The position numbers were made by a program, and so were the translations under genes. 64,000 nt of DNA from Anaerolineae bacterium (lineage in GTDB: Bacteria > Chloroflexota > Anaerolineae > UBA4142 > SHND01). The stretch is taken from assembly GCA_020851635.1 (NCBI GenBank), contig JADZCJ010000089.1:1-64000 (forward strand), given 5' to 3'. Every line of letters begins with the position of its first letter. The first letter of the stretch is position 1. This document shows, piece after piece, positions 31,252-32,012 of the stretch. The notes under the pieces are model-generated. The model saw nothing but the letters and a program-made list of their open reading frames with translations, searched no databases and was not told the DNA's origin.

Positions 31252-31956
31252 ATGAGCGAATCGAACACTCGTAGTGCGCGTCTCTGGGACGCGCGCCATT
31301 TTGTATATGCGTTCTGGGTCGAGCATACCCATCCCCCCACGGTGCAGGACACGGCGCGGGGGCTGGGCGTGGAGGCAGACGAGGCGCGAGCACTGTATGC
31401 GGAATTGAACGCGCGCCATGCCATGCTGCTGATGCCCGGCACGCACGTAATTCGGATGGCGAACCCGTTTTCGGGCGTGCCGACCGGGTTTCGCGTGACC
31501 ATTACGGGGACCAGCGCGCACGCGGGCAAGAAATATTACGCCAACTGCGCGTGGGACTCGTTCGGGATTCCAGCTGCGCTCGCCGCCGACGCGACGATCG
31601 ATGCATTTTGTTCCAACACGCAAGAGCTGCTGCGCCTGCGCGTGGGGGATGGCAAGATCACGGGCGATGCGGCGGTGGTGTATTTTCGTGTGCCGTTTGC
31701 CCACTGGTATGACGATTTGGTCTTTACGTGAGGGAATATGTTGTTCTTCCGGTCGGAAGAGGACGTGAACGCGTGGAAACGCGCGCGCAATGTTGCGACG
31801 GGAGAGGTCCTGGAACCGGCGCAGATTTGGGCGCTCTCGCAAAAATGGTACGGCAACCGGCTCGCGCACGATTTTCACGGGCGCACGTTGGAAGAGGCAC
31901 AAGAGATTTTTCGGGGGATCGGGTTGACGTCGGCGTTTTGGTATATTGAGAAGTGA
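31252..31956 (+). CDS. MerB-like organometal lyase, candidate selenoprotein (in-frame TGA)
   Basis: 234 residues if TGA at 31729-31731 is read through. The N-terminal winged-helix part (ARHFVYAFWVEHTHPPTVQD) and the core NPFSGVPTGFRV...YYANCAWDSFGIPAAL match alkylmercury lyases. Cys99 and Asp102 in CAWD correspond to catalytic Cys96 and Asp99 of MerB. The frame stops at codon 160, TGA, and continues GNMLFFRSEEDVNAW to 31956. Codon 160 aligns with Cys159 of MerB, the other catalytic cysteine. A 7-bp stem with a GGUC loop (31744-31761) begins shortly after the TGA. Insertion of selenocysteine is the favoured reading. Alternatives: a nonsense mutation, a sequencing error, or a split protein with the second part starting at ATG 31738 behind GAGGG. 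Confidence 0.75.
31744..31761 (+). promoter_or_regulatory. Candidate bacterial SECIS hairpin
   Basis: TTCTTCC (31744-31750) pairs with GGAAGAG (31755-31761, one G-U) around a GGTC tetraloop, 19 nt after the TGA. Bacterial SECIS elements place an apical loop beginning with G about 16-37 nt after UGA, and E. coli fdhF also uses GGUC. The stem is also dictated by the FFRSEE codons, so chance is possible. Confidence 0.55.
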
Positions 31957-31976: not shown

Positions 31977-32012
31977 TAAAAAAGGGGCGTTTAGTTAAAC
32001 GCCCCTCCTTTT
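31977..32012. terminator. Bidirectional intrinsic terminator
   Basis: GGGGCGTTTA and TAAACGCCCC (31984-32005) form a perfect 10-bp stem, with an A-run before and CCTTTT after, between the convergent MerB-like and aldolase genes. Confidence 0.88.

Follow-up and report, generated by a model that had tools for sequence, protein, structure and literature searches.

A MerB-like gene of an Anaerolineae bacterium with a predicted selenocysteine at a catalytic position

The window, a 64,000-nucleotide stretch of an Anaerolineae genome, contains a MerB-like reading frame interrupted by a TGA codon, which raises the question of whether this codon ends a truncated protein or is read as selenocysteine (Sec) in an active site. 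Confirming the single in-frame TGA reported in the initial annotation, we found exactly two stops in the frame, TGA at codon 160 and a terminal TGA at codon 235. The features of the locus are as follows.

31252-31956, plus strand: MerB-like gene with a predicted Sec at codon 160, 234 amino acids plus stop; PF03243 match across the TGA, with TGA also at this codon in homologues
31546-31548, plus strand: codon for Cys99, equivalent to MerB Cys96 (PDB profile alignment, alignment column)
31555-31557, plus strand: codon for Asp102, equivalent to MerB Asp99 (PDB profile alignment, alignment column)
31609-31611, plus strand: codon for Cys120, aligned with MerB Cys117 (alignment to R831b MerB); invariant in A1
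31729-31731, plus strand: TGA codon 160, predicted to be read as Sec, equivalent to MerB Cys159 (profile alignment, Sec machinery)
31744-31761, plus strand: candidate SECIS hairpin, 7-bp stem UUCUUCC/GGAAGAG with a GGUC loop at 31751-31754; GGUC in each of 72 Sec homologues, with compensatory changes in the stem; missing from Cys homologues
31954-31956, plus strand: true stop codon, also TGA
31983-32006, plus strand: terminator-like hairpin, 27 nt beyond codon 235, in keeping with a transcript that runs past TGA codon 160

The PF03243 (MerB) match covered residues 73-201 (E 1.5e-27; 96.5 bits against a curated cut-off of 27 bits) and spanned the TGA codon. We assigned catalytic positions by profile alignment to R831b MerB and the MerB2 PDB chains, which bore out the proposals that Cys99 and Asp102 correspond to MerB Cys96 and Asp99 and that codon 160 falls at the position of Cys159. 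In MerB, Cys96 and Cys159 hold mercury and Asp99 carries protons (PMC4525700). An AlphaFold2 model of the window protein (mean pLDDT 86.5) matched Hg-bound MerB2 (Z 19.5) and MerB (Z approximately 16) over nearly its whole length, placing the protein within the MerB fold. Identity to characterised MerB is low (16 to 20%), and the window protein did not reach the organomercurial lyase MerB equivalogs NF033555 (33.3 of 200 bits) and PRK13239 (35.8 of 193 bits). Nor did it contain the strict Cys96-Asp99-Cys159 triad, having Cys, Asp and a predicted Sec, so that the third residue differs. Past the end of classical MerB the protein has a C-terminal extension, which closes with a conserved FW motif. 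We regard it as strongly supported that the gene encodes a MerB relative in which Sec, specified by an in-frame UGA, is one of three predicted catalytic residues.

A six-frame search of 60 relatives yielded five further genomes with the window type of protein (37 to 53% identity), each copy with one TGA, and a Calditrichota contig encoded the same protein, again with one TGA. When PF03243 was searched in six frames against 400 genomes of the phylum, taken to be Chloroflexota, and 396 of the class, 131 MerB-like proteins could be aligned. Of the 131, 75 had TGA at the column of MerB Cys159, and 22 of those 75 also had it at the Cys96 column; in the homologues, the column of codon 160 holds either Cys or TGA. 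Other in-frame TGAs lay at domain ends, except for one extra TGA in L117, at domain residue 160, the codon following the conserved Trp; Cys is the usual residue there in clade A (RWC), and this TGA may be another Sec, decay or an error. The proteins were grouped as follows, with Sec denoting the predicted reading of TGA.

Clade A (the window type), n = 49: Cys96, Asp99, Sec159; triad kept in 49 of 49
Clade B, n = 15: Sec96, Asp99, Sec159
Clade C, n = 8: mostly Sec96; Glu or Asp at position 99; Sec159
Odd Sec cases with other hairpins, three: L069, L086 and L087
Cys-only MerB-like proteins, n = 56

The clade B members (L078, L082, L083 and L142-L153) are predicted double-Sec proteins, with Sec at both MerB Cys96 and Cys159 (AAUAIDA...FURKSVFFWSEEHA), and clade C members L076, L079-L081, L140, L141 and L154 form a second double-Sec kind (AQUGFE...RUSGMNLFRSEEHV). 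Within clade C, Glu often replaces Asp99, and genome G191 carries three paralogues. Among the Cys relatives, Asp99 is replaced by Cys in L102, L097 and L098 (CxWC, together with Cys159), which would possibly create a three-thiol metal site.

The stem UUCUUCC-GGUC-GGAAGAG starts 12 nt past TGA codon 160 and its loop lies 19 nt past it, in agreement with the initial annotation, which had also cautioned that the codons for FFRSEE might produce such a hairpin by chance. Because the folding energy of the hairpin is unremarkable in the window sequence alone (z -0.43 for 30 nt and -2.15 for 60 nt), this caution was fair for a single sequence, but the homologues removed chance as an explanation. A GGUC loop occurred at the same spacing after the Sec159 codon in all 72 sequences of clades A, B and C versus none of 55 Cys sequences. 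In 56 sequences the innermost stem pair was C-G, in 15 U-A and in one A-U, and two further stem pairs also changed on both sides; 94% of the stem cells were paired, whereas sliding the partners left no more than 62% paired. A hairpin arising by chance from FFRSEE codons is ruled out by the compensatory stem changes, which are seen in L107, L117/L135 and clade B, and by codon fixation, with the loop-forming Arg and Ser codons of clade A being CGG/TCG in 98% of cases versus at most 53% for other six-fold codons of the gene. Downstream of its Sec96 codon, clade B has another invariant hairpin, CCCUU-CGUGC-AAGGG.

The genome encodes the components for reading UGA as Sec, including tRNA-Sec (selC; UCA anticodon, 69.5 bits), SelB (348.7 bits, cut-off 242) and, both over their cut-offs, SelA (593.9 bits) and SelD (365.5 bits). 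Its selD gene likewise contains an in-frame TGA, within the motif ASCAGU (L093, G000:C107:51778-52704, minus strand). With an in-frame UGA where homologues have Cys, a hairpin right after the UGA that is conserved as RNA, and selA, selB, selC and selD all present in the genome, the window gene has the marks of a selenoprotein gene, and Sec decoding of UGA160 is close to certain. The proposal that the TGA specifies an active-site Sec is thereby upheld by the Cys/TGA column of the homologues, the GGUC hairpin and the sel genes.

Two other readings of the codon would leave the protein without Sec. If the TGA were a real stop, through mutation or sequencing error, the locus would be a truncated, dead MerB gene, and a lone in-frame TGA would indeed look like a pseudogene were other data absent. 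Such decay does occur in the family, as a Rubrobacter radiotolerans plasmid (NZ_CP007515.1) carries a decayed Sec-MerB (L096, 2441-2916) annotated as an 89-aa organomercurial lyase ending at the TGA. However, homologues in 65 genomes of the phylum, as well as in one from Calditrichota, have the same TGA, and an invariant hairpin follows it. Median omega (dN/dS) for close pairs was 0.24 before the TGA and 0.22 after it, so that selection past the codon is by this estimate purifying, which rules out a pseudogene and leaves a dead gene a negligible prospect. Alternatively, TGA might have taken on a new meaning such as Trp, or an ordinary tRNA might read through it; reassignment of TGA does occur in some bacteria. 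In the window, TGA is the commonest stop and ends 19 of 38 large open reading frames, as well as the gene itself, indicating that it is a normal stop codon; moreover, tRNA-Sec, SelA, SelB and SelD are present and the homologue column is Cys rather than Trp. With reassignment ruled out by the stop usage of the window, a non-Sec decoding of UGA160 is exceedingly improbable.

Reading UGA160 as Sec, we examined how this trait is distributed on a tree computed after removal of the two Sec columns. At least seven changes between Cys and Sec at position 159 were required on this tree. Because clade B stands apart from clades A and C, the tree suggests separate origins of Sec in these groups, with long branches making the exact place of clade B unsure. 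L069, L086 and L087 have TGA at the Cys159 column in an otherwise classical MerB (with an AGUU loop in L086 and L087), which suggests further independent Cys-to-Sec changes. We detected tRNA-Sec in 58 of 65 Sec-MerB genomes; several of the seven genomes showing none are incomplete assemblies. Cys forms nested in the Sec clade came from genomes G079, G140, G097 and G638, none of which has tRNA-Sec, and from a fifth, G410, in which selC is present; these nested forms resemble reversions from Sec to Cys that followed loss of the Sec trait. Since the phylum uses Sec widely, tRNA-Sec alone does not separate Sec-MerB from Cys-MerB genomes, and it also occurred in 33 of 39 genomes of a second set, including five lacking any MerB. 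The viral contigs, phages and plasmids searched contained no intact Sec-MerB copy. One MerB copy with an in-frame TAG (L050, G299:C30:238-606) lies beside an intact MerB and is probably decaying.

The genes neighboring the window gene encode DUF418, DeoC/LacD aldolase, HEAT, aldo-keto reductase, Usp and Nramp proteins. We found no mer or other metal-resistance gene adjoining it, and for clade A no conserved operon partners beyond genus-level housekeeping synteny. Elsewhere in the genome, a second MerB gene, of the Cys type and on another contig, overlaps the start of a MerA gene (L091, 4555-6586, minus strand). Standing alone, outside a mer or SAO operon, the window gene probably encodes a general organometal detoxifier. 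Because metal-resistance neighbors and a conserved clade A neighborhood are both lacking, its substrates, which may be mercury, tin, lead or arsenic organyls, are a guess from homology.

Our favored model is that SelB and tRNA-Sec, directed by the downstream GGUC-loop hairpin, decode UGA160 as Sec to give a 234-residue MerB-fold enzyme that cleaves organometals, and we hold this model as a whole to be very probable. By the known MerB mechanism, the metal of the substrate, R-Hg or a similar soft-metal organyl, would be bound by Cys99 and Sec160, Asp102 would pass a proton to the leaving carbon with release of R-H, and cellular thiols would then take the metal off. With selenium, the metal would be bound more strongly and the ligand would stay a selenolate at neutral pH. 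Organometal protonolysis with thiol-assisted metal release is thus what we infer by analogy with MerB.

Two rival views accept Sec and differ on what the protein is. It might be a MerB-fold Sec protein that is not a carbon-metal lyase, acting instead as a selenol metal chaperone, sensor or scavenger or as an enzyme on another soft substrate. The absence of metal-resistance neighbors, the low identity to MerB and the extension with its FW motif would fit such a role, as would the frequent Glu for Asp99 in clade C and the Cys at that position in some Cys relatives. Against it, the Cys-Asp-Sec triad is kept throughout clade A and the whole fold matches MerB, and we judge a non-lyase function unlikely. 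The protein could also simply be SaoL (NF040728), which is described as the organometallic lyase of the SAO system (Haft and Gwadz 2023, as cited in PMC13188914) and is MerB-like with one Sec in a CU motif (PMC13188914). Since the last position of the SaoL model falls on the Sec column of L074, SaoL may have its Sec at the same Cys159 site or beside it. However, the window protein scored 35.4 bits with NF040728 against a cut-off of 140, has TU rather than CU, and has no SAO operon neighbors among the genes of the window; no protein in 400 genomes of the phylum exceeded the NF040728 cut-off, and no conserved neighborhood was apparent. On the score we reject membership in SaoL, which is very improbable.

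Our comparisons indicate Sec decoding, placement of the Sec on MerB Cys159 and a conserved Cys99-Asp102-Sec160 triad, and they place the window gene in a previously unlisted, widespread family of predicted Sec-MerB proteins, some with Sec at both catalytic Cys positions. These genes are hidden: annotation can stop at the TGA, and a large MerB survey, which used Cys96, Asp99, Cys159 and Cys117 as its screen, counted only seven in Chloroflexi (PMC8261052). A 2026 inventory of 119 selenoprotein families contains no MerB-like member other than SaoL (PMC13188914). In the double-Sec clades B and C, both metal-binding catalytic cysteines would be replaced; these clades matched no described selenoprotein family, have no counterpart in that inventory and, giving no match to NF045648, are not the double-selenoprotein MbdU. 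We consider it likely that several Cys-to-Sec conversions in one phylum produced organometal lyases with one Sec (Sec159) or two (Sec96 plus Sec159); these would form a large, as yet unannotated class of selenoenzymes that cleave carbon-metal bonds at a mixed sulfur/selenium or all-selenium site. Activity of such enzymes would mean that estimates of methylmercury turnover in sediments and soils may be too low. Because selenium binds mercury far more tightly than sulfur, an organomercurial-type lyase with a selenol ligand would offer a direct test of whether nature exploits Se-Hg chemistry for detoxification.

Relative to known systems, the candidate SECIS resembles that of E. coli fdhF, a bacterial SECIS with a GGUC apical loop a short way after the UGA; the loop is shared, whereas the protein and the stem sequence differ. 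With MerB of plasmid R831b (PF03243), the window protein shares the fold, Cys96, Asp99 and the position of the third catalytic residue, but it has a predicted Sec for Cys159, 16 to 18% identity in fold alignments, an extra C-terminal segment and a gene outside a mer operon. The closest solved structure is MerB2 of 5c17 (Z 19.5, 2.8 A over 190 residues), which has Cys159 and Ser at position 99 where the window protein has Sec and Asp. SaoL, compared by profile and description, is likewise MerB-like with one Sec, but is encoded in a multi-selenoprotein operon, whereas the window gene stands alone.
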